Of a stretch of DNA of 64,000 nucleotides, positions 27,650-64,000 are shown piece after piece. Position numbers and translations under genes: made by a program. Location of the stretch: contig CM055095.1 of NCBI GenBank assembly GCA_029204225.1, positions 11,255,506-11,319,505 of the forward strand. Reading direction: 5' to 3'. The stretch's first letter is position 1; the number at the start of each line of letters is the position of its first letter. Origin of the DNA: Diphasiastrum complanatum. Taxonomy: Eukaryota; Streptophyta; Lycopodiopsida; Lycopodiales; Lycopodiaceae. The notes beneath the pieces were generated by a model. The model made no database searches and had not been told where the DNA came from. It saw nothing but the letters and a program-made list of their open reading frames with translations.

Positions 27650-28740
27650 TACCAAGTTTGATTGATCTTCAAGAGATCTTGATCAATGAAGAATATATGC
27701 TTCAAGCAAGAGGTGATTCTTCATCAACATCTCAAGTTGGAGAGGAGGCTCTGTACATCAAGCGCAAATTCAAGGGCAAAAACAAAACTTAGTGGTCTAA
27801 AGGGCAAGATGAAGAGGAGGCTTCTTCAAATGGCAAAAGAAAGATAGATCAAAGCTCAAGTGCTTCTATTTTGGCATCATTGGACACTTTGTAAGTGAGT
27901 ACTACAAGAAGAAGAGAGATCAAGGAGACAAGCAAGGTAATCTTACACTTGATGAGGATGGTTTGGATGTTTAAAATGAAAATGATGATGCTTTTGTGAT
28001 GTCTTCATGTATGCTTGTTAATGATGGATATCTAGATCTATGGTGGATTGATAGTGCAGCAAGTTCACACGTGACTTTTCACAAAGAGTACTTCACTACT
28101 TTGTTGGCATGTGGAGATGACAATAGGGTGATCTACACAGCCAATGATGGTGAGTGTGCAATCAAAGTGATTCGCACAATCTCTACAAATAGGAATGTTC
28201 ATTTGGAGGATGTTTTGTTTATTCCATCTATTACCAATAATTTACTTAGTGTGAGTCAATTTCTAAGTAAAGGTCTCAAAGTTGAGTTTCATGGAGATGC
28301 TTGTATGATCAGAATGAAGGATATTTTGATTGCAAAAGATAAAAGGCAAGGGAAGTTGTTCAAACTAGATGCTTGTGTTATTGCTAACCAGGTTGGATGT
28401 GTTTCAAGAGAGAAAATACCTATTCAAGAGGTTTGGCATAGAAGGATGAGACACCTAAACTTCAAGTCATTGGAGATAATGACTAGGAACTAAGTTGTAA
28501 TTGGTCTTCCAAGTTCCTTGAAAAGTATCAATCATTTTTGTCAGTCTTGTGCTTTGTCAAAGTCACATAAACTACCTTATACTATATCTGCATGTAGATC
28601 TACAAAGCCTTTTCAAGTTGTACATTCGGATATTCATGGAATTACTACAATTAGTAATAGTGGAGCTAAGATGTATGTAACTTTTATTGATGATTTTAAT
28701 AGATTTTGTTGGATCTATCTACTAAAGAACAAGTGTTAGC
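27650..28740 (+). pseudogene. Copia gag C-terminus, protease and integrase N-part
   Basis: The zinc knuckle at about 27861-27903 has lost two cysteines (CFYFGIIGHFVSEYY). Protease follows as LWWIDSAASSHVTF, where the usual catalytic D-S/T-G reads DSA. GAG-pre-integrase comes next (LFKLDACVI, WHRRMRHLNFKSL), then integrase HSDIHG and FIDDFNRFCWIYLLKNK, ending at 28739. Stops occur at about 27790, 27973 and 28491. The nearest relative in the window is the pol fragment at 54534-55658. The 5' part of gag, RT and RNase H are missing. Confidence 0.85.
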
Positions 28741-34994: not shown

Positions 34995-36228
34995 TTATCC
35001 TACAAAAAGCCATACAAAAGCTATCACCGGTACGGGTGCCTGTTGCTCATGAGCATTCATCCCGCCAGCATTTTGTTGCACAACATTTTGATCATTGAAA
35101 CGATTATTAAGCCATGGTGGTGGCAATCCTCTTTCTAGATTCACGACACAGTGCTGATGGTATGGCCACACAGCTGAAATAACAGTGACCCCTTTGACTG
35201 CAAAAATTGCAAATATCATCTGGCAGATCTGGTCGATAATGCACTTGTCGTTGAAATGGTCGTGGCTGCATTTGATATGGGTCTTGATACGACTACATTT
35301 GTGGTGACATTGGTTGTAGTTGTGGTTGCTGATATTGAGGCTGTTGCATTTGCGGTTGTTGCATTTGTGGTTGTTATGGTTGGTGTGCTTGGACTGCAAA
35401 TGCTCCAGCAGATCTTACTACTTGTATTTGTCCAGTGGTTGTATGCATTAGAAATCAGACAATATCGGGTACTATGAGGACATTCATTGATATAATGTCC
35501 TCCTTGATTATAGTTCCAGCAAAAAAGGATATTCCCTTGGTGAAACTCCATAGTAACGGCCTCTTTTGTGACTGCTGGTAATGACTAACTAGCTTTCCCC
35601 TTCTGCTTATGCTTCTTAGACCATTTCCCATCACGTGAAGAAGTTGAATTCTCTTCTGAGCTCGAGGAATCATCTGATTCCGAACCTGTATCCATATCAG
35701 AATCAAAATCAGATGAGTCATCCTGCCGATGATGTCGACGCTGTCGTCGGTACTTCTTCCTAGTTTCTTCTTCCTCTAACTGTCTTGCAGCATCCACAAT
35801 ATGTTCCAGGCCTTGACTATGTAGCGAAGTAGTTCCTCGTCGAAGAACCTTATGTAGTCCATGATGAAAATACTTGATGCATTTAGCATCTGTGAGTGGC
35901 TCTTGTAATCTCTTCTCTATCACCTTAAAACATTGAACTTTAGATAATACATCCTCCTTCCATTTCTGCTTGATCGCTTGCACTTTATCTAGTATTTCTT
36001 CATCCTCATGTTCCTTCCAATACCTTTTCAGAAATGCCCTTCGTAATTCATCCCAGCTCCAAAACTCTTGCAACCCATACTGTGAATACCACTGTAAAGC
36101 ATTCTCTCTCAACGTGGTTGGAAATAATTCGAATTTTTGAATGTCTTCCATTTCACGATTTGCCTGACAAACCACCGGGAACTGGTGAATGTGCATGTCA
36201 GGGTCATCATGCTTCTTACCTTTAAAAC
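34995..36228 (-). pseudogene. Ty3/gypsy gag with two zinc knuckles
   Basis: The capsid part (36228-35585) contains FELFPTTLRENALQWYSQY and WDELRRAFLKRYWKEHEDEE, typical of plant gypsy gag. A basic R/K-rich segment and an acidic S/D-rich tail follow. The first knuckle reads CWNYNQGGHYINEC, with its second Cys changed to Tyr. The second, in another frame near 35200, reads CNFCSQRGHCYFSC, intact CX2CX4HX4C. A Q/P-rich linker lies between them. The stop after KGKAS and frame shifts show decay. No protease or RT follows on this strand. Confidence 0.85.
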
Positions 36229-36229
36229 A

Positions 36230-50460: not shown

Positions 50461-50793
50461 AACTCTCTTCTATCATTAGAGGAGTTACAGACATCAAAAA
50501 GGCCGTCTAAGAAATGCCACGTAGGACAAAAAAAAACGCTAGATTTTAAAACTTTGACGAACTTTTAGGTCCAATTTAGCTTAACCTTACTAGTAATGTG
50601 TAGTTAACATGACACGATTATGACGTATGCAACTCTGGCTTCAAGAACCTATGACGCTCATTAACTAACTTTTTCAGATTTGAAAATGAGATTGTCTCTC
50701 TCATTGTAACCAGCGAGAGAATAAACATAGAATCTCAGGTACGTCATGGATGAATAATAGTGTCTATTTTCTTTTTGGTCTGTCATCTGATGT

Positions 50794-53394
50794 TTGCGGA
50801 GATGTCTCAGTTTCATCTACACATTGTTCTCCCTGCCGAGAATGCTCCGATATTTCTCCACAGTTTTTCCACTTGATATGATCGCTCACAAAATCAACCA
50901 AAGAAAGAATTACGATATGTGGATTGACAGAAGTTTGTATCCATTGGATCCGAGCTCGATGCAAGCTCCACAACTCCAATCCATCACACAATTAATAAAG
51001 TTTTTGTGTGACGGAGAAAACGGTTTATTGTGTTATTTTGAAAGATTGAGGACTTATGGTATTGTAAACTCAGTTCAGAAAATACAGAGTTTAGAAAGTA
51101 TCTTAAATGGTTTGCTTGCTGACTATAGAGAAAAAGAGACCACATTACTACAAACAAAAGAAGATAATGCACGTTTACATAATATTATGTTAAATTTGAA
51201 TGCAAGTAATGATCAATTCCGACAAGTTGTTCAAACATTACGTATATCAAATGACCAGTTAAAAGAAGAAACTCGCATACTAGATAAGAAATTAAAAAGA
51301 AACAAGTGAAAAAGAATTCTGAAGGACATTGATGAGCTTTCGCTAAATGGAGGCCAACGGAGAAAAAGGATTCAAGCATTCAAGTAAGGATTTGATTTGA
51401 ATTAGTTTTATTTTAGTTTTGTGAAGTAGCATGACATTTATTATGTGTCCTATTTGGGTTTCTTGATTTTCATAATCATTTGTAGATCAACATTGGTTGC
51501 AAATCAGCATCTGAAGGACAATGACCTGATCGGAAAATCATTGAGTTCAGTATTGACAACCAAGTCCACAAAGTCTTTATTGGACAATAATCGGTATTCT
51601 CGAATCAAGTCCAAGGTCACTGAGGATTTGATGAACGAGGTCGGTAAGGTAATCGACAGAATGTTAATTCAGGGAGCATGTGATTTCTCAGGTATTGGGG
51701 CATATGCCAGTATATTTAAAATTATTAAAGAGGCTTTTGGACAATTGCATGTAAGAAAATTTCCCATTCCTCGTCCTTTTCAGATAAGATTGGAGATAGA
51801 TGTATTGAATAAGGGTATGCAAAATGTCATTCGAATCCCTTTTCACATCAATGAGATTTACAATTCTAAGTCTGGAAATTTGTCATATAATTCTACCAAC
51901 AACTTATTTGTGGATTTGAATCATTTATTGAGATTTATAGTGAGATTCTATAATATTACAAGTGTTAGTATGAGCAAACTCATTCTGATGGTCAAGCTAG
52001 ATGAATCAGAAGTTAAGAAAGGACAAAAGTTGGAACTCTCATGAATGGAACATTGAGCAATGCAACAAACTCAAGGGATCTCAACTTCAGTGTGCAATCA
52101 GAAAACAACATATGGTGGCTAGCATGTTTACAGGTAAAAAATGGTTGTTATTCATGTGCAATTTCTTTTGGTAATTGTTTTGAATACATAAAAACTTGTG
52201 ATTCCATATGTTGAACAGGTTATCAAGGAGGATCACGATGTTCTTTCCTGGATTTTTAGCAGAACATGTTATCCAGATATCATAAAGGATCATACAAATG
52301 GAAAAGTACTTAGTGTTTTTGAAAGAGGCGAATTTTTGGTGGAATGGCATTTAGCTGGAGACTTGAAGTTATTGAAATGTATGTTCAATGTATCTCATGG
52401 AGCAAATTCGAAACATCAATGTCTATATTGTATGAAATCATCAAATGACATTTCAAGGAACACAAGAGTTTCAAGAGATATTGAAGATCCCAACTGGAAA
52501 CCAGTACTACCAATCCCTTTACAAAATGTGCATATTTGCACACTTCATGGAGAGGTGAGGATCATAGAGAAATTAATATATCTTCATATCTTGTTTGCAT
52601 GGAATACTAAGCCAGAGTCAGCATCAAAACAAGCAATCACTCGTTTAGAGGAAGTGTTGTCAAAAGCAGGCCTTCATAAAGCCATGTTAAAATACAAAAA
52701 GATGAAAAGCTTTCGGGAAAAACTAGAAACGTACCCAATAAACCTAGCATAGGAGGAGTCAAAGCTTGTCGATTTTTATCAAATCATTCTAAAGAGTCAT
52801 CTAAGATCCAATATTCGGTGTGGAAAGATGTTATTTCTACGACAGAAGACTTTGAAGATAAAGGAACAGCAAGGGTAGAGAAGGTTGAAGTTTGGAAAAA
52901 GCTCGATAATATGATTGAAGTGCTTAGAAAAGACACAATTTCATATGCAGATGCACTCCTATTGGAAAAAATAGCAATAGAGTTTGTAGATGCAGTTGGG
53001 GTGGCTTGGGGCTCAGATCACATCACCCACTACATGGTAAGATACATTTGAACAGTTTCTTACAATCTTATAATTTTAGTATAACTTGCTTGATAGATTC
53101 TAACCAATGCATAAATCTTTGATATGGCAGCACATACTAAGGCATCATGCATCATTTTTTGCAAAAAAGTATGGCAGTTTGAGTATATGGTCCTCACAAG
53201 GAATGGAGAAATCACATTGGCAAACAAGAGGAGCATTTCATCGAAATACACAACATGGTGGAACATCCTCAAAAAATAGTTACATCATTCATCTATTCCA
53301 ATGGTTTTATAGACGAGCTCAAGTTCGATACACAACAAGATCAACTGAATATCAAAGATTCAAAAAAGCATGTATATTTATAAGCCAAAGTTAG
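50794..53394 (+). CDS. Four-exon transposase-like gene, lightly damaged
   Basis: The exons I infer are ~50794-51383, 51486-52133, 52219-53036 and 53131-53394, with GT-AG introns of 102, 85 and 94 nt that join coherent sequence (for example THYM to HILRHHASFF across the last one). Exon 1 is partly coiled coil and ends LNGGQRRKRIQAFK. Exon 3 has WHLAGDLKLLKCMFNVSHGA, then HQCLYCMKSSND (paired Cys, possible metal site) and LPIPLQNVHICTLHGEVRII. Exon 4 has YGSLSIWSSQGMEKSHWQ and RGAFHRNTQHGG. The 'GDLK...CxxC...HGxxR...GxEK' order is reminiscent of an uncharacterised transposase-like family; I cannot name it. Damage: one TGA near the end of exon 1 (51307-51309), one frameshift near 52035 and another near 52730. 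The start is uncertain; a Cys-rich segment (CSPCREC) lies in another frame just upstream. A related fragment lies at 10668-10770. Confidence 0.6.
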
Positions 53395-53460
53395 ATTCAT
53401 GGCATTCAATAAAGATCAAACGCGTGTGATAAAAAATTCTCAAATTTCACATACATTAAA

Positions 53461-54115
53461 TGTGAAAAATACAGATCCTAAGTGGATCTAAACTCCAAGA
53501 TCATTGGCTTGAATGCTTGCACTCCAAACTACATAAGCTAGGAATTGGCAACACATTCTATGCTACCTAGAATGCAAAGAACTTGATCAAAAAGCATTTA
53601 TCACAAATGGAAACTTCCATAAACATCAAGTGCGGCCCAAAATAGCATTATACAGTCCATAATACATCAGCCTATCACTTTTGGAAAGCACCTAAGATCA
53701 TACACAATAGCTTGAAGACAATACACACAACAATGCTCTCAATGGAGGAAGAAACAATGACAATGATCTATTGATCTCAATGAAGCATACAAAAGGTTTC
53801 TCCAACCTGTTCTCCATGACTTCCCTACTATTTATGGATGAGGAAGATGACTCTCTCTCCTCTCTCTAGAAGGTACTTGACCCTAGATATTCCCTATATA
53901 GGAAAAATAGCTAACAATGGCTTATATGACCAAAATACATCAAAATGGTCTCATTTTGAAGGGTATGAAGTTTGACACTTCATCATACTGAAAAAATACA
54001 GTAAATAAAAACATTGTGGCCTGGTTCACACATGCAAAACTCCAGAACCAAAACTATTTACAATTTTAGCCAATTTAGGCCTCAAACTAGCTAGGAAATG
54101 TTGACAATTTTCACA
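53461..54115 (-). repeat. 3' LTR of the young copia (655 bp)
   Basis: Bounded by TGTGAAAA and TTTTCACA. The adjacent purine tract GAAGAGGGAG (54116-54125, minus strand) is the polypurine tract. A tatata motif near 53895-53903 could be the promoter. Positions 53549-54115 align without gaps to 55653-56219, with 3 substitutions. Confidence 0.9.
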
Positions 54116-54533
54116 CTCCCTCTTCAACATTGGATGCTAGTTTCAACATAGTCTTTGAGCACATTCCAAGATTAGATCTATGCATTAAATATAGGTCCTT
54201 TCCCAATGGTTTGGTGAAGATATCAGCCACACACTCCTTTGAAGAGACATGTTGAAGCTCCACCTCTTTGGCAATGACTTGATCTCTCACAAAATGGTGA
54301 GCAATCTCAATGTGCTTGCTCCTTGCATGAAAAACAGGATTGCTTGCCAAGCTTTGGGCTGAAAGGTTATCACAAAGTATGATTGGAGTCTTCTCTGGTT
54401 CCAGCAAGTGAAGATCCAATAACATCCTCTTGATCCAAAGAATCTCCTTGGTGCATGTTGTTAATGCCTTGTACTCGGCTTCGGTGGAAGATAGAGAGAT
54501 AGTTGGTTGCTTCTTTGATAGCCATGAGACCAC
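54111..54533 (-). pseudogene. Copia RNase H fragment
   Basis: The 140-residue frame encodes VSWLSKKQPTISLSSTEAEY, IILCDNLSAQSLASNPVFHA, KHIEIAHHFVRDQVIAKEVE and ADIFTKPLGKDL. These are the copia RNase H core and pol C-terminus, with the catalytic Glu and second Asp present. The preceding catalytic Asp segment and all of RT are missing: the frame follows the integrase C-terminus directly after a TGA. The final stop overlaps the start of the 3' LTR. Confidence 0.9.
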
Positions 54534-55658
54534 TCAGTTAGAGTTGTCCACCACTTGCTTTCCTTTTTCATCATAGGTTAGCCTTGATGGCTTAGCCCTT
54601 TGCCTTTGAGTCTTCCTTGAAGTTTGCTTTGGAGTGGCATCTCCATCTTCATCCAAGACATCTTGCACATCATGATGATTAGTAGGCACATCAACATCAA
54701 CATCAACAACATTGGAAACATTCTCTTCATGAAAGATGACATCCCTACTTATGACAACTTTCTTTATAGAAGGAATGTACACTTTGTAAGCCTTGCTTAC
54801 TTCACTATAGCCAACAAACACACCCTTCTTTGATGAAGGATCTTCTTTAGTTCTATCATCAAGTGTGATATTGACAAAACATGTACATCCAAAGATCCTA
54901 CAATGCTTGACACTCGGCCTTCTACCATAAAGAACCTCATGAGGAGTTTTACCATCCAAGGAAGCACTTGTCCATCTATTACATAGATAGTTAGCACATG
55001 CTAAAGCTTTCCCCCAAAAAGACTTAGCAAGATTAGCATGTAGTCTCATTGCCTTGGCACATTCACAAAGGGTTCTATTCTTCCTCTCGGCCACTCCATT
55101 CTGTTGTGGAGTCCTAGGACTAGACATCTCCCTCTTAATCCCATGTGCTATACAAAAGTCTTTGAACCTAATTGAGGTGTATTCCCCTCCATTATCAGAT
55201 CTTAAGCATTTGATCTTTGTATTGAATTGGTTTTCCATTTCATTCTTGAACTTGACAAATGCAGCAAACACTTCATCCTTACTTTTAAGAAGATAGATCC
55301 AAGTATACCTACTAAAGTCATCAATGAAAGTTGCATACATCTTTGCCCCACCATTGCTAGTTGTACTAGAAGAATGAATATCAGAATGCACAAGTTGAAA
55401 AGCTTCTTTAGATCTAGAAGTAGATCTAGAATAAGCAAGTCTATGAGATTTGGACAAGGCACAATGTTCACAAACACTATTGTTTGCAACAAGACTTTTA
55501 GGGAGACCAAGAACAAGCTCTTTCTTTGCCATTACCTCCAAAGATTTGAAGTTGGGATGGCCCAACCTCTTGTGCCAAACTTCTTGGTTTGTCAATTGCT
55601 CCCTAACCATACATCCTTCATGATTAGAGATCACACATGCATCAAGCTTGAACAACAC
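54534..55658 (-). pseudogene. Copia GAG-pre-integrase and integrase, 374 codons
   Basis: The frame is intact from the deletion junction. LFKLDACVISN opens it, then the HHCC zinc site (WHKRLGHPNF ... CEHCALSKSH). The catalytic core has VHSDIH, RSDNGGEY and TPQQNGVAERKNRT (Asp, Asp, Glu all present). Next come CANYLCNRW, LYGRRPSVKHCRIFGC and DVIFHEEN, with a charged linker that ends at a TGA. In a full element this enzyme inserts the cDNA into the genome. Here it has no gag-protease upstream and no RT downstream, and its apparent ATG lies in 5' LTR sequence. The fold may be intact, but proper expression is unlikely. Confidence 0.9.
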
Positions 55659-56219
55659 ATTCTATGCTACCTAGAATGCAAAGAACTTGATCAAAAAGCA
55701 TTTATCACAAATGGAAACTTCCATAAACATCAAGTGCGGCCCAAAATAGCATTATACAGTCCATAATACATCAGCCTATCACTTTTGGAAAGCACCTAAG
55801 ATCATACACAATAGCTTGAAGACAATACACACAACAATGCTCTCAATGGAGGAAGAAACAATGACAATGATCTATTGATCTCAATGAAGCATACAAAAGG
55901 TTTCTCCAACCTGTTCTCCACGACTTCCCTACTATTTATGGATGAGGAAGATGACTCTCTCTCCTCTCTCTAGAAGGTACTTGACCCTAGATATTCCCTA
56001 TATAGGAAAAATAGCTAAAAATGGCTTATATGACCAAAATACATCAAAATGGTCTCATTTTGAAGGGTATGAAGTTTGACACTTCATCATACTGAAAAAA
56101 TACAGTAAATAAAAACATTGTGGCCTGGTTCACACGTGCAAAACTCCAGAACCAAAACTATTTACAATTTTAGCCAATTTAGGCCTCAAACTAGCTAGGA
56201 AATGTTGACAATTTTCACA
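55653..56219 (-). repeat. 5' LTR of the young copia, 3'-truncated (567 bp)
   Basis: Starts TGTGAAAA at 56219 on the minus strand. The last 88 bp of the LTR and the PBS are deleted at 55652/55653. Confidence 0.9.
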
Positions 56220-56239
56220 TTAAATGAAAAAGAGTACAA

Positions 56240-57774
56240 TCATTTTTTTTCATTGTCTCCAAGGACAATTTTTGCTGTGTGGTCATGAAGGAACTTTTTC
56301 CTATCATACGAATCCAAAAATCGAGTGGATCGCCTTTTGCTCAAATCTATATATCCTGATAGAATTGCCAGAACAGAGGATCTCATAGGAACATTTTCTA
56401 GCACGTAATTAAACACTTTAAGAGCAACATCCCATTTGACAAAAATGATTCTATATGTATTTTTTGGGTATTTATGCCCTTGGGCAAAATAAAAGATAGG
56501 GCCTTGATGGCCATGATTTAAGTTCCCGCATTCACAAAAAACCTTTCATGAAGAACACAAATTTCGTTATTTAAAAAATGTTTCAAATAATGAGCCAACG
56601 AGGCATCCTTCTGTCTCCCGCCTTGTCTCTCTCTCAATCCTTCATGCCTGCTAGCAAAGGCATCAACTTCAACGATATCCTACAACACATAATCAAGTGT
56701 TAGTCAAACTAGCAAATCAATCATCAGTTACACATTAAATAATAAATGATTTTTGTGAGAAGGTGTACTTACCAAATCCTCCTCGTCAGCTTGGATCATA
56801 CCAGCAGCTTCTAAATTGTGACCAGCAATAATGGTGGATTGCTGGTCAGCTGGAATAGTATATATGGGAGGTGGCAGATACTTTTTCTGAAAAGCCAAAA
56901 ACTCCTCCTCACTCGGCATATTAGCCTCATATGCCCTGCTCTCAGATAGCATCCTTTGAAGGGCATCTGTGCCACTTGCCCATTCTACTTGGTCCTCATA
57001 GTCAATGCCATCTATGAGGTCGTCATCATCAAAGTCAATAAAATCATTAAATTCAGAAATCATCCTTGACATAAGAGATAATATCTCTTCTTCTCTGAGA
57101 TCCATTACGTCTCTGATGTCGCTAATGGATAAGAATGCAACATCGTCCATATGGTACACATGGAGGTCCACCAGGGTTCTGCTCTGGTCAATCTCACTCA
57201 CGGTAGATAAGGGAGAGATAAAAAGAGAATGAGCCTTGGCAGGATCATATTGTTGTGCTTGCCTGGCCTCCTCTACATCTCCTGAAACCTCATCAGTAAT
57301 GAAAACCTCTGAAGCCACACGAGTGGTAGGGGCAGGCAAACCAATCATGGACGACCTAGAAGATTCTACCTCGTTAGGGATAAGAGCAGATAAGAAAAAC
57401 ACGCAGGCCATACCCTCCTGAACGAAGTGACATACTCGATTGTGTTCCTCACAGGGTATGACACGTTTAAACATATCGATAAGTTTGGTAAACTTACAAT
57501 CATGCCTTTGCTTGGCACTAGGCTGAGCATGAGTCAAATCTGTGAAATGCACAAATCTCAGGTCGTCCATCATAAGGGTACCCTATTGCAAGCAGTCATA
57601 AAAGTCCTTGTACAGTTTAGGAAAAATTTCCATGTGCTCAATAACAAATCTCTCTATGTCAAACTGAAAATTGAAATAGGACAAAAAATGGGCCTGTCTG
57701 TAGTTAACCTCAGCATCAACAAGGAAAGAACTAACAGCTTTATAATAGATCAAACTAGCAGACGAGGAGGCCAT
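56240..57774 (-). CDS. Unknown two-exon protein of the 50.8-63.8 kb cluster
   Basis: Exon 1 (57774-56773) starts MASSSASLIYYKAVSSFL and is one frame of 334 codons, interrupted only by a TAG at 57583-57585 (CLQ-stop-GTLMMDDL). The middle is very acidic (FNDFIDFDDDDLIDGIDYED). The donor TTG/GTAAGTACACC is near-perfect. Exon 2 (56679-56240) continues DIVEVDAFASRHEGLRERQG and, after one frameshift near 56525, LNHGHQGPIFYFAQGHKYP and WDVALKVFNYVLENV, ending in a basic part and a TGA. Total length is about 480 residues. No signal peptide, membrane segment or known domain is recognised. It diverges from the H3-like gene across the promoter-like repeat array, which suggests joint regulation. The function is unknown. 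Confidence 0.6.
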
Positions 57775-57820
57775 ATCGATATGACGCTCCAGTTAGCAAG
57801 GGGACATAAACGGGGTAACC

Positions 57821-60296
57821 ATGGGTGCGTGATGGCAATATGCTCTGCACGTGAATCCAAATATTGGAACCACGCGCCAGGGAATCAGTGCAACTATGGA
57901 ATTCTCTACTGGGCGCGTGATAGCGATATTGTACGAACAGATTTGGAGTGGGCCGGTTAATTGGACTCAATATGCGAAACTGAATTACAGAAATGACACT
58001 CATATATATAGTCTAATACAGAGCATGTGAATCGTACACTTGTCTCAGTAACGTGCGGTCAAAACTTGCCACACGTGTGAAAACGACAGCGAAATCATTC
58101 TGAATGACACGTGTACACTTCGGATCTTGACACGTGTCCTCGCACGTGCATGCCAACCGAATGTACGAACCACTGATATCTTGACACATGACAGATGCGT
58201 GTGATGGCACGTGTGACCACATGTGTGGTGAGTGGAGGTGTCACATCATACGTGCGAATATGATGGGACGTTCTACATGTATAAAAGGACATTTTCGGCT
58301 CATATTTCAGTTTCTTATTTCTTTATTCTCTGGCTCTCCTTAGTTTCCTTCGTTCACTTCCGCTCCTTGTTAGACGCATATCGCTACCATGCGCCCAAGG
58401 ACCCACATACCAGTACAGCTGCCCCCCCCCCCCCCCCATGGGTGCGTGATGGCAATATGCTCTGCACGCGAATCCAAATATTGGAACAATGCGCCAGGGA
58501 ATCAGTGCAACTATGGAACTCTCTACTGGGCGCATGATAGCAATATTGTACGAACAGATTTGGAGCGGGCCAGTTAATTGGACTCAATATGCGAAACTGA
58601 ATTACAGAAATGACACTCATATATATAGTCTAATACAGAGCATCTGAACCGTACACGTGTCTCAGTAACGTGTGGTCAAAACTTGCCACACGTGTGAAAA
58701 CGACGGCGAAATCATTCTGAATGACACGTGTACACTTCGGATCCTGACACGTGTCCTCGCACGTGCATGCCAACCGAATGTACGAACCACTGATATCTTG
58801 ACACATGACAGATGCGTGTGATGGCACGTGTGACCACACGTGCGGTGAGTGGAGGTGTCACATCATACGTGCAAATATGATGGGATGTTCTACATGTATA
58901 AAAGGACATTTTCGGCTCATATTTCAGTTTCTTAATTCTTTGTTCTCTGGCTCTCCTTAGTTTCCTTCGTTCACTTCCGCTCCTTGTTAGACGCATATCG
59001 CTACCACGCGCCCAAGGACCCACATACCAGTACAGCTGCCCCCTCCCCCCCCCCTCCCCCCATGGGTGCGTGATGGCAATATGCTCTGCACGCGAATCCA
59101 AATATTGGAACCACATGCCAGGGAATCAGTGCAACTATGGAACTCTCTACTGGGCGCGTGATAGCGATATTGTATGAACAGATTTGGAGCGGGCCGGTTA
59201 ATTGGACTCAATATGCGAAACTGAATTACAGAAATGACACTCATATATATAGTCTAATACAGAGCATCTGAACCGTACACGTGTCTCAGTAACGTGCGGT
59301 CAAAACTTGCCACACGTGTGAAAACGACGGCGAAATCATTCTGAATGACACGTGTACACTTCGGATCCTGACACGTGTCCTCGCACGTGCATGCCAAGCG
59401 AATGTACGAACCACTGATATCTTGACACATGACAGATGCGTGTGATGGCACGTGTGACCACACGTGCGGTGAGTGGAGGTGTCACATCATACGTGCAAAT
59501 ATGATGGGACGTTCTACATGTATAAAAGGACATTTTCGGCTCATATTTCAGTTTCTTAATTCTTTGTTCTCTGGCTCTCCTTAGTTTCCTTCGTTCACTT
59601 CCGCTCCTTGTTAGACGCATATCGCTACCACGCGCCCAAGGACCCACATACCAGTACAGCTGCCCCCTCCCCCCCCCCCTCCCCCCATGGGTGCGTGATG
59701 GCAATATGCTCTGCACGCGAATCCAAATATTGGAACCACATGCCAGGGAATCAGTGCAACTATGGAACTCTCTACTGGGCGCGTGATAGCGATATTGTAT
59801 GAACAGATTTGGAGCGGGCCGGTTAATTGGACTCAATATGCGAAACTGAATTACAGAAATGACACTCATATATATAGTCTAATACAGAGCATCTGAACCG
59901 TACACGTGTCTCAGTAACGTGCGGTCAAAACTTGCCACACGTGTGAAAACGACGGCGAAATCATTCTGAATGACACGTGTACACTTCGGATCCTGACACG
60001 TGTCCTCGCACGTGCATGCCAACCGAATGTACGAACCACTGATATCTTGACACATGACAGATGCGTGTGATGGCACGTGTGACCACACGTGCGGTGAGTG
60101 GAGGTGTCACATCATACGTGCAAATATGATGGGACGTTCTACATGTATAAAAGGACATTTTCGGCTCATATTTCAGTTTCTTAATTCTTTGTTCTCTGGC
60201 TCTCCTTAGTTTCCTTCGTTCACTTCCGCTCCTTGTTAGACACATATCGCTACCACGCGCCCAAGGACCCACATACTAGTACAGCTGCCCCCCCCC
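57821..60296 (+). repeat. Tandem array of four ~620-bp promoter-like units
   Basis: Units start at 57821, 58438, 59062 and 59687 (lengths 617, 624, 625 and ~610). Each opens with atgggtgcgtgatggcaata. Each holds up to seven CACGTG cores within ~190 bp (in unit 4 at 59903-60091; the first and last cores are mutated in unit 1), then a TATA box (tgtataaaagg), a leader-like stretch, and a C-homopolymer of varying length. Units 3 and 4 are almost identical. The array lies between the divergent genes at 57774 (minus) and 60391 (plus). Frames of 69-177 aa in it repeat because the DNA repeats. Confidence 0.9.
60146..60152 (+). promoter_or_regulatory. TATA box of the H3-like gene (array unit 4)
   Basis: TATAAAA sits 245 bp upstream of the ATG at 60391 and follows seven CACGTG (G-box/ABRE-type) cores. 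The same box is present in each upstream unit (near 58278, 58896 and 59521). Confidence 0.55.
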
Positions 60297-60390
60297 GCGC
60301 GTCGTGGCGATATGCCATCACTCATATCTCCCCTGTCGAATATCTGCTTTTCCTTCTTGTTGGTGCGTCATATTAATACCCTACCTTGAA

Positions 60391-62224
60391 ATGGCCCGTC
60401 CCAAGCAGACAGCACGCCTTACACATTTGCCCCGCCTCCTCGTCCTCTTGTACAAAGGGCAGTGGGCACTGGTAGGAGAGTAGGTGGGCCTAGAAGACCA
60501 TGGGTAAAGGATATCAGGAGACTTCAGAGGACAACAAATCTTCTGATTCCCCATGCTCCTTTCTACAGGTCTGTGAGATTAGTAACAAGGTCCCTCTCAC
60601 ATGATGTTCGCTGGAACATAACAACCCTAGAAGCCCTCCATGCTGCCTATGAGGACTTCCAAGTCAAATTCTTTGAGGACTCCACGCTTTGCATAGTGCA
60701 CGCTAAGAGGGTTACTCTCATGCCTCTGGACATGCATCTTGTCATGAGGCTGAGGAGTACATACGATCAGGTCTTTAAGAGTGTCTTCACTTCTAGGCCA
60801 CCACCTACAGCGAGAGGTCCTGTTCCTCAACGAAGGAGGAGGAAGCAGACCAAGCCCACTAGGCCTACTAAGCAAAGGGTGGTACTCAACGAATCACCAT
60901 CCCCCTCTCACATCTCTCATCATTTGGTTGGACCATCACACCAGTCTACAGTGCCTTCTTCTCCTCCCACCACCCCTAACTATTCAAGTAGTTCGTCTTC
61001 CATTCCCTCCATTCCATCCCACAATAACGAGGATATAAACTCGACTGTAGATAAAATAATATCGGATCTAGATTTAAGTTTAATAGGTGATTTTTATAAG
61101 GATCTTTGTGTAAGATTTCCTGTTGATCCCAAAGATTCATTTTTGGATTCTGAGAGGTATATAATTTTTGATGAGTATGTTGCCAAAGAAATTGATAAGC
61201 TAAGAGGTTAATTTTCTTTTTGTCTAAGTTCAATTAGTTATATAAATCACATAAATAAAGACTTTTGTGATGCCCTGAAGGAGAAGACCTCAGATATATC
61301 AGATCCAGTTGTGGAGGCTGGTTTGATGTATTTTGTAAATGGATGTAAATCCGATGATAGTAAGGACATTGGAGTTGTGTTGTCCTTTTTTGCACACAGC
61401 CTTCATAGTCCAACTAAGGCGACGAAGTATCTTCTTCATACAACCTCGGAGACCAAAGTCTTTATTATTCCATACTGCCAAAAGTAAGTGATTACATAGA
61501 ATATATTCTAGTAATATTTTTAATACGTATTGTAATTCCTTTAGTTTAACTAATTATCTCTTGTTTGTAGTAAGCATTGTAGTATGCATATAATCTCCCT
61601 TAGAGAAGATTCATATGGGATTATTAATCTCTTTTGTTTAAAGATGAACTCCTTAAAGTCTACCCATGCCGAAATGGACGTGATGTACAGCAGAATGTTG
61701 CCATTTTTGCCAAGGCCGGATGGGGCCATTGTAAATAGCCACCTGGAGATTGTTGATGCAGAAGTATTCTCATCAAGTATTTGATAGCTAATATGATCTG
61801 ATTTTCTCAGAGTGCACAACTAACCTATTATACGTTTTGTGATTGAAGTCAGCTCAGCAAGATGATGGACATAGTTGTGAATGGTTCTCCATCCGCAATG
61901 TACAGGATTTTTAGAGTGGTACATCATGCAATCCAGGGCTCCAGATATACGAAAGGTAAATAGACTAGTGAATGGCCTAACTAAGTTATTTTCGTTTTGG
62001 TTTCTGATAAGTCAACTAACTCAGCTCTTTTGGATTTGCAGTATAAATGTCGAGCATTTTCAATGAATGAGATATATGAGTTTCGTCAACAGATGTCGGT
62101 GAACTTATTATCTCATGCAACACCCAGTCCAGCTGCGGAAATGGGAGGCCAATCAAGTCCACAACTGACACTAGTGCAGGGTGGAGATAATCCATACTAC
62201 TTTGAGCTGTCAATAATAGATTAA
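60391..62224 (+). CDS. Histone H3/CENH3-like domain fused to Ulp1-like protease
   Basis: The ATG at 60391 begins MARPKQTAR, the H3 tail start. One frameshift soon after (60418-60450) leads to the frame holding a full histone fold at about 60498-60750: VKDIRRLQRTTNLLIP, FYRSVRLVTRSLSHDVRW, LEALHAAYEDFQVKFFED, then LCIVHAKRVTLMPLDMHL. HAKRVT.MP.D is diagnostic of H3; TNLLIP, RW and RVTLM resemble plant CENH3. A basic, S/P-rich linker follows. Further exons by splice-site inspection are 61261-61483, 61571-61776, ~61849-61955 and 62041-62224. They carry VFIIPYCQ, KHCSMHIISLRED (expected HW is HC) and QQDDGHSCEWF (candidate catalytic Cys), the layout of Ulp1/C48 SUMO-type proteases, then a C-terminal tail. 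The first intron is only 54 nt. The splice into exon 4 does not keep frame, and there is a frameshift near 61900. Likely nuclear. The copy is probably not fully functional. Confidence 0.65.
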
Positions 62225-62389
62225 ATAGAGATATACATTTTTGATGTAATGCCCTGTGAATAATTATGGGCATATAGAATGATTAGAGACAATGAGAAAA
62301 AAACATCCATTGTTAAATACGAGACACATGTACATTCTCATCAAATGAGAAATATATTGATATTTATGAGAGCTTTTACAAATCTTGTA

Positions 62390-63754
62390 TCATGATTGCT
62401 CTATTATCTGAACAATTCCACCCAAATCTTTGCATTTGATTTTCTCTTCATGTCTTTTACGTAACTGCACAAACATACATTAATCAGATTACAGTTAGTG
62501 ATCCAAAAATTGACAAAAAGGATAATGAATACAAATTAATATACAAATTCATGGATTTCACATACCAATTTTCCATCCAATATAAAGTTGAAATATTCGG
62601 GGATATCTTGCTGTAAAAGTGTCAGTTCCGTTCTAATGTAGAATAAAGTCCAGCCTTGCTCAACCTCAATAGTAGTAAGTAAATCCCCATTTGCCATGAT
62701 ATCAATGCATATACGATCAGTGTGTCCAATGTTGTCTAGATCTTGATCTAATGGGGCCCAAGTACCATTGTGTTCTTTCCATCTTTGATAATGAAACACC
62801 ATACTAAGCATTTGCTTTTCTATACTGTATCTGAATGATATGGATGAATGTTTGATTCTACAAGAAATATCTGCAGTGGATCTTATATCCCAACCTTTGT
62901 CCATGAATTTGAATAAAAAATCATCTGATAGATTTTTGCAAACAAACAATGTGGGAGTTCGATGCACTTCTGTGTTTGAAAAAGAGCTGACAAACAATGA
63001 CATTGGAACAAACCAGCTTAAGTGCACATTTCTTGATCCAGTACTAGTTTTGAGTGACTTTTGTACATCATTATATAGCTTGGAACGAAAGCATTTTATT
63101 ATATTGTCGTTGACTGCAATCCACCACACGTTATCTTGAAAATTAGGTAGAGGTATATAGTCTAGTCTTTCCATTCCTCCATTTGTGTCTGGAATATACA
63201 TAGCATCATAAAAAAATATTCCAAAATCTGCAAGTTCTTTTGTCGTTCGTCCTCTGTATTGCAATTTGCCAATTTCTGAATGGATGACATCTATAATACC
63301 TGAAAGACACGCCACAGGTTTCCATTCATGTATATTTGAAGGATATGGATCTGCGATACAAAATCATAATAAGCTCCAATTCATAAATACGAATACGTTT
63401 TAAAAATGACAAGCAATCCAAAAAATTAAGATACTTACAATTACACTTTCAAAAATCATGTGGATTTACAGCCTCCACATTAAGTTTTGAATGTATATAA
63501 ACATGTTGAATAAGAACTTCTGAAATGGTTTGTCCTCCTGGAGAAACTTTGAAATCAATAATTTGCCCTTTCCAAAAAGATCTATATGTATACTTGGCCT
63601 TTTTCTTTTGGTGAAAAGCCCCTCTCGCCGATGGATGCATCAGTACCCAAGAAGCCTTATGATATTCACGAGCAATCCATGTGCCATCATCTTCCCTCTC
63701 GTTATAAAAAATTGCAGAGCATGTCAAGGATGTCGGTCTCCTTCTCATCGCCAT
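62390..63754 (-). CDS. Unknown three-exon protein, possible ubiquitin-like C-terminus
   Basis: Exon 1 is 63754-63439 (MAMRRRPTSLTCSAIFYNER), exon 2 is 63350-62566 and exon 3 is 62464-62390. The introns are GT-AG (GTAAGTATC donor; GTATGTG donor), and the three exons join in frame to 392 codons. The single defect is a TGA at 63449-63451 in exon 1 (HDF-stop-KCN). The middle has WIAREYHKASWVLMHPSARG and DNVWWIAVNDNIIKCF. The C-terminus ICIDIMANGDLLTTIEVEQG, then IRTELTLL and YFNFILDGKL-LRKRHEEK has a beta-grasp look and ends DLGG plus eight residues. No family is recognised with certainty. It converges on the H3-Ulp1 gene (166 bp between stops). Confidence 0.6.
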
Positions 63755-64000
63755 AGCTTGAAGAGTTCACGTTTGAACTCGTCAATATGAGAGTCCATAG
63801 TATAATAGGCGCCAAACCTATTTGTGAGTCCCAAGATAATTTTAACTTGAGGTTAACCCAAGCAGTTTAGTCAACCAATCGTCGTGCACGCCAGCCAATA
63901 GTATGCTTCCAATCTACCAGACCGGAAATTCAAATTTGCCCAAATATGAATTGTGTTTTCCGGGTCAGGCGAGTTATGTTACATAGAAGCCACTATGTCA
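63755..64000. other. Upstream region of the minus-strand gene
   Basis: Non-coding up to the window edge. It contains CCAAT-like boxes but no convincing TATA box. The mobile element, if it is one, may extend beyond. Confidence 0.35.

Follow-up and report, generated by a model that had tools for sequence, protein, structure and literature searches.

A histone H3-like protein fused to a Ulp1/C48-like domain in a DNA element of Diphasiastrum complanatum

RESULTS

A decayed fusion gene at 60391-62224

The window analyzed here is a stretch of 64,000 nucleotides of the 1.74-Gb Diphasiastrum complanatum genome (C4:11255506-11319505). Its right part is occupied by a DNA element, designated alpha, which was delimited with two comparison copies (A, on C6; B, on C14, right part only). 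The features of the element, in window coordinates, are as follows.

50474..64000, plus strand: alpha DNA element, defined by homology to copies A and B, the flanks being unrelated in other copies; its right end falls past the window, at window coordinate 64090 (L038)
50474..50506, plus strand: left terminal inverted repeat, CATTAGAGGAGTTAC...; its right partner, ...TGTAATG, lies just beyond the window
50791..53391, plus strand: candidate transposase from the ORF lists, broken ORFs with a CLYC motif; no Pfam family above cut-off
56240..57792, minus strand: element ORF in pieces of up to 284 aa; no Pfam family above cut-off
57805..60279, plus strand: four tandem, promoter-like units of ~617-625 bp, each with TATAAAAGG, at 58280, 58897, 59521 and 60146
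60391..61483, plus strand: exon 1 of the fusion gene, with H3 tail MARPKQTAR, H3 fold, Pro/Ser-rich linker and N-terminal part of a C48-like domain; here with a frame break past the tail and a stop at 61209
60489..60758, plus strand: histone H3 fold, residues 34-123 of the frame-0 ORF 60390-61208 (PF00125 at residues 34-122, PDB H3 matches to 123)
61571..61763, plus strand: exon 2, whose His motif is KHC here but KHW in the majority of other copies, and where Asn takes the place expected for Asp; splice borders read in copies
61849..61955, plus strand: exon 3, with the Gln and Cys motif, of QQDDGHSCGWF type elsewhere and damaged here; PF02902 match in L013 and L008
62042..62224, plus strand: exon 4, the C-terminal end of the fusion gene; acceptor present in most copies
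62536..63766, minus strand: two element ORFs of 275 and 105 aa; no Pfam family above cut-off

The segment 60391-62224 is a damaged, decayed member of a four-exon gene family. In the ORF reading of the window, MARPKQTAR starts at 60391 on the plus strand and is followed, on the same strand, by an H3 fold in which HAKRVTLMP.D and TNLLIP can be read. The frame-0 ORF 60390-61208 matches the Pfam Histone family (PF00125; E 7.6e-21, 75.1 bits, cut-off 26.4). In the PDB it has 173 distinct matches with E no higher than 1e-5; the best 60 of these 173 are forms of H3 headed by H3.Y (E 4.4e-19). The H3 start and the hallmark-bearing fold that the initial annotation had placed here are both present from 60391 onward, with Pfam and PDB support, but they lie in different frames in this copy. 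The fold frame has no ATG ahead of the fold and is terminated by a TAA at 61209-61211, and the tail carries T3P in addition to the frame break. An intron between MARPKQTAR and the fold was ruled out as the cause of the frame change because other copies have both in one frame. Farther downstream, the residues flanking His and Cys are altered and the reading frame is lost within the Cys exon; the downstream exons of the window copy itself, scanned against Pfam in a join that is not letter-true, gave no C48 match. An AlphaFold2 model of the window histone part from the single sequence reached a pLDDT of 53 and was left out of the conclusions.

Structure of the alpha element

Homology between copy A and the window begins with CATTAG at 50474 and stops at TAATG. 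The ends, CATTAGAGGAGTTACAAAC... and ...GAGAACTCCTGTAATG, show small differences among copies and form an imperfect inverted repeat of ~33 bp, which was recovered in copy A, in the window copy and, among further fetched copies, at nine of nine left and six of nine right ends. No target-site duplication flanks any of the eight copies with both ends (six further copies, copy A and the window copy); the right end was not found in three. The target-site duplication of MULEs is 9 bp. CACTA termini and a 3-bp duplication are likewise absent, the termini being CATTA without duplication.

Copy A measures ~8.9 kb. The gene content of alpha comprises the candidate transposase on the plus strand, ORFs on the minus strand and the fusion gene on the plus strand, the last being the only one of the element ORFs scanned with a Pfam match above cut-off. 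The ORFs at 50791..53391 are a candidate transposase by their position and by the CLYC motif, and a motif resemblance may link them to KDZ (Kyakuja-Dileera-Zisupton) transposases. The transposase ORFs scanned were broken pieces only, and these gave no Pfam match to MULE, Tnp2 (CACTA) or KDZ transposases. A segment of the ORF at 56240..57792 (ORF2) lies within 10 kb of a listed H3 match at 21 of 40 places and upstream of the H3 gene on the same strand at 20 of the 40, while the remaining 19 have no H3 match within 10 kb among the matches listed. The internal segment 51848-57531 is inverted between the window and copy A (L034/L035); a programmed inversion was considered and dropped, 20 of 21 places having the window orientation and one the other.

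The tandem units at 57805-60279 are near-identical, contain ACGTG boxes and lie upstream of the fusion gene; copies A and B have a single region to which all four correspond. In VANDALs, tandem noncoding repeats are the targets of VANC proteins (PMC10398659). The window element also hosts an inserted Copia pol on the minus strand at 54111-55661 (rve, 52.5 bits; SH3_retrovirus; gag_pre-integrs). Other retrotransposon pieces in the window are a Copia-like Pol_BBD (27975-28490, plus strand) and a Retrotrans_gag (35588-36229, minus strand). In two near-identical H3-fold copies (L019 and L027), the tail is replaced, in the same open frame, by a sequence that looks by eye like Copia integrase.

The fusion gene across alpha copies

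The window ORF gave at least 146 matches at no fewer than 141 distinct places, on each of C1-C23 and on small contigs; not all places are independent insertions, some small-contig copies being near-identical to chromosome copies. The underlying genome search yielded 7562 first-look candidates, and 141 places were scored. Openness of exon 1 was scored on 30 copies, 11 additional fetched copies standing outside that score. In three of the 30 (L012, L013 and L021), exon 1 is a single open frame that runs from the tail, which is MARTKQTAR or close to it, through the fold and the linker into the N-terminal part of the protease and reaches the first splice site past ...FIIPY.Q. In the other 27, exon 1 lacks its start or is interrupted at some point by a stop or a change of frame. 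The in-frame tail of L021, a copy picked, like the others, by fold homology, reads MARTKQTARLTTFASPPRPPLQRAVGTSRRVGRPRRPWLRDIRRLQRTTNLLIPRAPFYR, and in L028-L031 the stop position 61209 is read through in frame. The search of the same genome for intact copies that had been proposed at the outset found exon 1 open throughout in less damaged copies, where the histone and protease parts are linked within one exon. This agrees with the initial proposal that a mobile element carries a histone of H3 type joined to a Ulp1-like protease part.

The first intron has the donor GTAAGT and the acceptor TTTGCAG after IIPYCQ. The second donor, after VDAE, is changed in the window copy; the third, GTAAAT, follows PDIRK, with the acceptor TTTGCAG ahead of YKCRAFSMN. 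In L008, L013, L026, L028 and L045, among others, exon 4 stays open up to its stop. Borders first tried for exons 2 and 3 were dropped, as they shifted the frame in most copies, and those adopted fit more copies. Pattern matching by script recovered the full set of borders for 18 of 41 copies; in the remainder, borders are altered, deleted or missed by the patterns. Spliced L013 is a protein of 518 aa that passes the cut-offs of both Histone (PF00125, 73 bits) and Peptidase_C48. The alpha element almost certainly encodes an H3-like protein fused to a Ulp1/C48-like domain.

The protease part and its catalytic residues

Both copies scanned pass the 20.7-bit cut-off of PF02902 (Peptidase_C48), with 22.7 bits for L013 and 31.0 bits (E 2.8e-7) for the protease part of L008. 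The downstream Ulp1-type His and Cys exons of the initial annotation, and their match to C48 profiles, therefore stand for other copies but not for the window's own altered exons. Searched against the PDB up to E 10, the protease part has three matches only, SENP2, a Ulp1-like SUMO protease and yeast Ulp1, which span the His and Cys motifs and of which none is significant alone (best E 0.22). Judging from these sequence comparisons, the protease part belongs to the C48 fold family.

Among alpha copies with letters at the respective positions, the catalytic His is kept in 37 of 39, the oxyanion Gln in 34 of 37 and the Cys in 31 of 37, with Tyr replacing Cys in six of 37. The catalytic Asp is absent: 36 of 37 copies have Asn at the +17 position, and an alternative alignment on the MNSL stretch also places Asn there. 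Because Asn occupies the expected position of the catalytic Asp, proteolytic or SUMO-protease activity is uncertain; the domain may be inactive, and we regard activity as the somewhat less probable state.

The best of three PF02902 matches in a genome profile search lies in a probable host gene (L001; G000:C5:76129325-76129789), with 47.7 bits for Peptidase_C48 at positions 2-183 of 217. We take it to resemble a NEDD8-type protease. Those three matches do not include the transposons' spliced protease parts.

H3-bearing repeat families and MARTKQTAR sites

A genome search with Pfam Histone listed 150 matches: 13 ordinary H3 (163.7-165 bits), 134 diverged H3 (~95-110 bits) and three short ones, at least two of which sit at the intron-bearing H3 genes L080 and L081. 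Several further families emerged among H3-like sequences. In gamma (L072), MDRRKRTRRDFF is followed by an H3 fold and then by DHWSLNPIS and SPQQNDCFSCGWY; this family shares the fusion and the three intron positions of alpha, and its tail, MDRRKQTRRD, departs from ARTKQTAR. Other gamma copies read are more broken than L072. When 84 of the 150 listed protease matches were compared, the gamma protease part lay 289-325 bp downstream in at least 18 of the 134 diverged H3 matches. Beta (L064 and others) starts with MARTKQTARDPRV, has a long proline-rich tail and ends after the fold, and delta (L067) starts with MARTKQTAREPQR. Beta, delta and a further H3-like family, epsilon (MARTKQTARLTHFVQP), combine ARTKQTAR with an H3 fold; these non-alpha ARTKQTAR tails come from matches picked with a motif that requires Lys4, and are no test of Lys4 conservation. 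Beta, delta, epsilon and the rest, for which the analysis covered copy number or sequence, are putative transposons.

An exact DNA pattern coding for MARTKQTAR occurs at 514 sites in the genome, far beyond chance (reversed control, 0). Lys9 comes next in 26 of these. Fifteen of the 26 were read and are canonical host H3 (L050-L062, L080 and L081), two are at delta loci by position and nine are unread, so that in this sequence set Lys9 is rare, rather than absent, outside host H3. At seven sites read directly (L100-L106), position 9 is Leu, Asp, Arg, Pro, Leu, Asp and Val; a fold or the start of one was read in L100 and L103, and L104 runs into stops. Among the first 100 listed of the 514 sites, 51 fall within C3:18.5-21.1 Mb, outside the window, and the one read there (L100) is epsilon. 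This cluster might mark a centromere or a hot spot of insertion, or have arisen by local amplification.

The H3 fold, its tail and the CENH3 question

In H3 numbering, the alpha fold keeps K115, R116 and L126 in 41 of 41 copies and H113 in 40, has Pro for Arg at position 63 and is altered at K56 and K122. Thirty-nine alpha tails, which include near-duplicates and one frame-shifted row, were aligned: Lys4 is found in 38 and Leu at position 9 in all, and no lysine that serves H3K9 or H3K27 silencing is present in the tail. A stop recurs at tail residue 5 in eight of the 39, near-duplicates included. Canonical host H3 (L050-L062, L080 and L081) and the transposon proteins have in common the ARTKQTAR start, the histone fold and HAKRVT.MP.D, but past residue 8 the transposon tails are unrelated to those of the host and, in the copies read, are without K9, K27 and K36 context.

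Alpha shares 40-41% of its residues with H3 and 45-46% with Arabidopsis CENH3; transposon folds generally are 40-54% identical to host H3. Like CENH3/CENP-A, alpha is a diverged H3 with a new tail, and it has LIP and RVTLM in common with Arabidopsis CENH3. Unlike CENH3/CENP-A, the transposon H3 proteins are of high copy number and, in alpha and gamma, fused to a protease, and measured against CENH3 and CENP-A sequences the loop-1 insertion is absent from alpha, beta and delta, gamma having one additional residue. The CENP-T_C histone fold appeared as a weak second Pfam match of L013, under the cut-off (E 0.0078). A tree of H3, CENH3 and transposon folds left its forks without resolution and tells neither an H3 nor a CENH3 origin. 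The host's own CENH3 was looked for and not found. The CENH3-like label first given to the locus is not supported by these data, which do not show kinship of alpha with CENH3.

Selection and traces of methylation

Variants among 30 non-redundant copies (mean identity, 92.7%) were divided into singletons and those shared by at least two copies, and nonsynonymous-to-synonymous (N:S) counts were compared by Fisher's test. N:S was 66:28 for singletons and 22:37 for shared variants in the fold (p 9.6e-5), and 106:27 and 45:32, respectively, in the exon-1 part of the protease (p 0.0014). No selection was detectable in the tail (34:11 and 20:9; p 0.60) or in the linker (82:30 and 42:23; p 0.24). The comparison is rough in that repeated mutation can also give shared variants; with this proviso, purifying selection seems to have acted on the fold and the protease part during the spread of the family. 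C-to-T rates in alpha copies are 0.108 in CG, 0.108 in CHG and 0.025 in CHH contexts. This 4.3-fold excess of CG/CHG over CHH is a mark of past cytosine methylation, as expected under CG and CHG methylation.

DISCUSSION

A histone-protease fusion as a possible anti-silencing factor

The alpha fusion may be the element's own chromatin factor against silencing, a role to which its sequence lends a little less than an even chance. The H3 fold retains the residues for H3-H3 pairing and for holding DNA and could enter nucleosomes with H4. The tail retains ARTKQTAR, the segment whose Lys4 is modified and recognized, and might draw in proteins that read Lys4; with no H3K9 or H3K27 silencing lysines in the alpha tail, chromatin holding the fusion could not take those marks. 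The tethered C48 domain, in turn, would act on silencing proteins beside the element, either stripping them of SUMO or binding the SUMO that they carry. Nucleosome entry, Lys4-dependent effects, resistance to H3K9/H3K27 marks and action on SUMO are steps that we infer from the residues kept and lost. The C-to-T bias at CG and CHG sites, a sign of silencing pressure on the element, favors this role. The broken state of most alpha copies counts against it, as do Asn for the catalytic Asp, Tyr for Cys in six of 37 copies, the changes at fold positions 56, 63 and 122, the lack of detectable selection on tail and linker, Lys9 at two delta loci and a gamma tail that departs from ARTKQTAR.

KIU (Kaonashi ULP-like) genes were reportedly described by Hoen in 2006. 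The literature consulted holds that some VANC genes of Arabidopsis VANDAL MULEs are KIU genes carrying a Ulp1 domain (PMC13317346), that VANC protein lifts silencing from its own VANDAL family (PMC10398659), and that KIU expression is low and its action on SUMO doubted (PMC6117577). Alpha resembles this system in having a transposon-borne gene with a Ulp1/C48 domain in many copies, VANC acting against silencing (PMC13317346, PMC6117577, PMC10398659). As far as these sources go, the partner of Ulp1 is VANC in one case and a histone in the other; VANDALs are non-TIR MULEs, whereas alpha has TIRs and its broken ORFs scanned gave no MULE transposase match; and anti-silencing has been demonstrated for VANC, whereas for the alpha fusion it is only predicted. 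The CACTA-ULP elements of grapevine and rice are, like alpha, cut-and-paste elements with a ULP1-like region (PMC2528002); in contrast to them, alpha has CATTA termini and a histone part, no target-site duplication was seen, and its scanned pieces gave no Tnp2 match. Histone sequence within a transposon has a parallel in a Culex Helentron, with eight copies containing fragments of histone H4 and of the H15 superfamily (linker histone) as broken pieces of host genes (PMC4067079), whereas here a full H3-like ORF under apparent selection occurs in many copies and several families. Transposons with SUMO-protease domains or anti-silencing proteins are already known (PMC13317346, PMC10398659). The open-access PubMed Central literature yielded no transposon-encoded full histone H3-like protein, only the Helentron fragments, an absence that is itself weak evidence. 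By analogy with VANC-Ulp1 (KIU), an element-encoded H3-C48 fusion with an anti-silencing role would be the best explanation overall, one that is about evenly balanced between being right and wrong.

Other explanations of the fusion

The H3-like part might instead tether the element machinery to a type of chromatin (e.g., centromeric or young nucleosomes) and steer insertion, with the C48 domain clearing SUMO-marked proteins. This would suit the CENH3-like LIP and RVTLM, the CENP-T_C match of L013 below cut-off and the C3:18.5-21.1 Mb cluster, which takes in 51 of the 100 MARTKQTAR sites listed first and whose one site read is epsilon. Such targeting is nonetheless unlikely, since alpha places are scattered over C1-C23, the long CENH3 loop 1 is lacking, the tree is without resolution and the cluster, resting on the first 100 of 514 places, may be a local amplification. 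Quite unlikely, too, is a transposition cofactor that packages or escorts element DNA or shields the transposase from SUMO-dependent turnover, the tail being incidental. It would leave ARTKQTAR, mostly without Lys9, unexplained in several diverged families, even though the gene is kept with another element ORF at 20 of 40 places (19 more being without an H3 match within 10 kb among the matches listed), both domains appear to be under purifying selection, and transposon-borne Ulp1 domains elsewhere have no settled role in the source consulted (PMC13317346).

Captured pieces of host genes may also have been amplified by hitch-hiking, functionless for the element. Plant transposons are well described to capture genes (PMC13317346), and most copies, the window copy included, are broken (27 of 30 in exon 1). 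Against this improbable reading stand an N:S of shared variants far under that of singletons in the fold and the protease part, a fusion and intron positions common to two diverged families, and the retention of His, Cys and H3 core residues in most copies. The window copy, with a stop at 61209 between its two parts, could pass for two adjacent genes, a histone and a protease with a transcript each. Copies with exon 1 open through the fold and the protease N-part (L012, L013 and L021), the frame that passes the stop position in L028-L031, splice sites in most copies and the identical arrangement of gamma make that highly improbable. Histones are also encoded by some large DNA viruses and by viruses of nudivirus descent, which would favor an endogenous virus with a viral histone. 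This is the most improbable origin of all: the Pfam matches of the element's own ORFs scanned include no viral family, one protein query found no relative in viral contigs, and short TIRs and a size of ~9 kb suit a DNA transposon.

Implications

For annotation, the 488 of 514 exact MARTKQTAR-coding sites without Lys9 are a warning, as they are not, for that reason, ordinary H3 genes. If the protein of the anti-silencing reading enters nucleosomes, these families would provide a naturally occurring test of what in the H3 tail counts for escape from silencing; they would also offer a means of studying how the SUMO and H3K9 pathways restrain transposons. In related families the H3 tail is retained over its first eight letters, mostly without Lys9, which suggests that transposons in this genome may use histones of their own against host silencing. 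Tentatively, and with somewhat more doubt than confidence, transposon families of D. complanatum may encode H3 variants in which the Lys4 signal alone is left and the silencing lysines are dropped, some of them fused to a SUMO-protease-like domain, which would amount to a self-made active nucleosome that resists heterochromatin.
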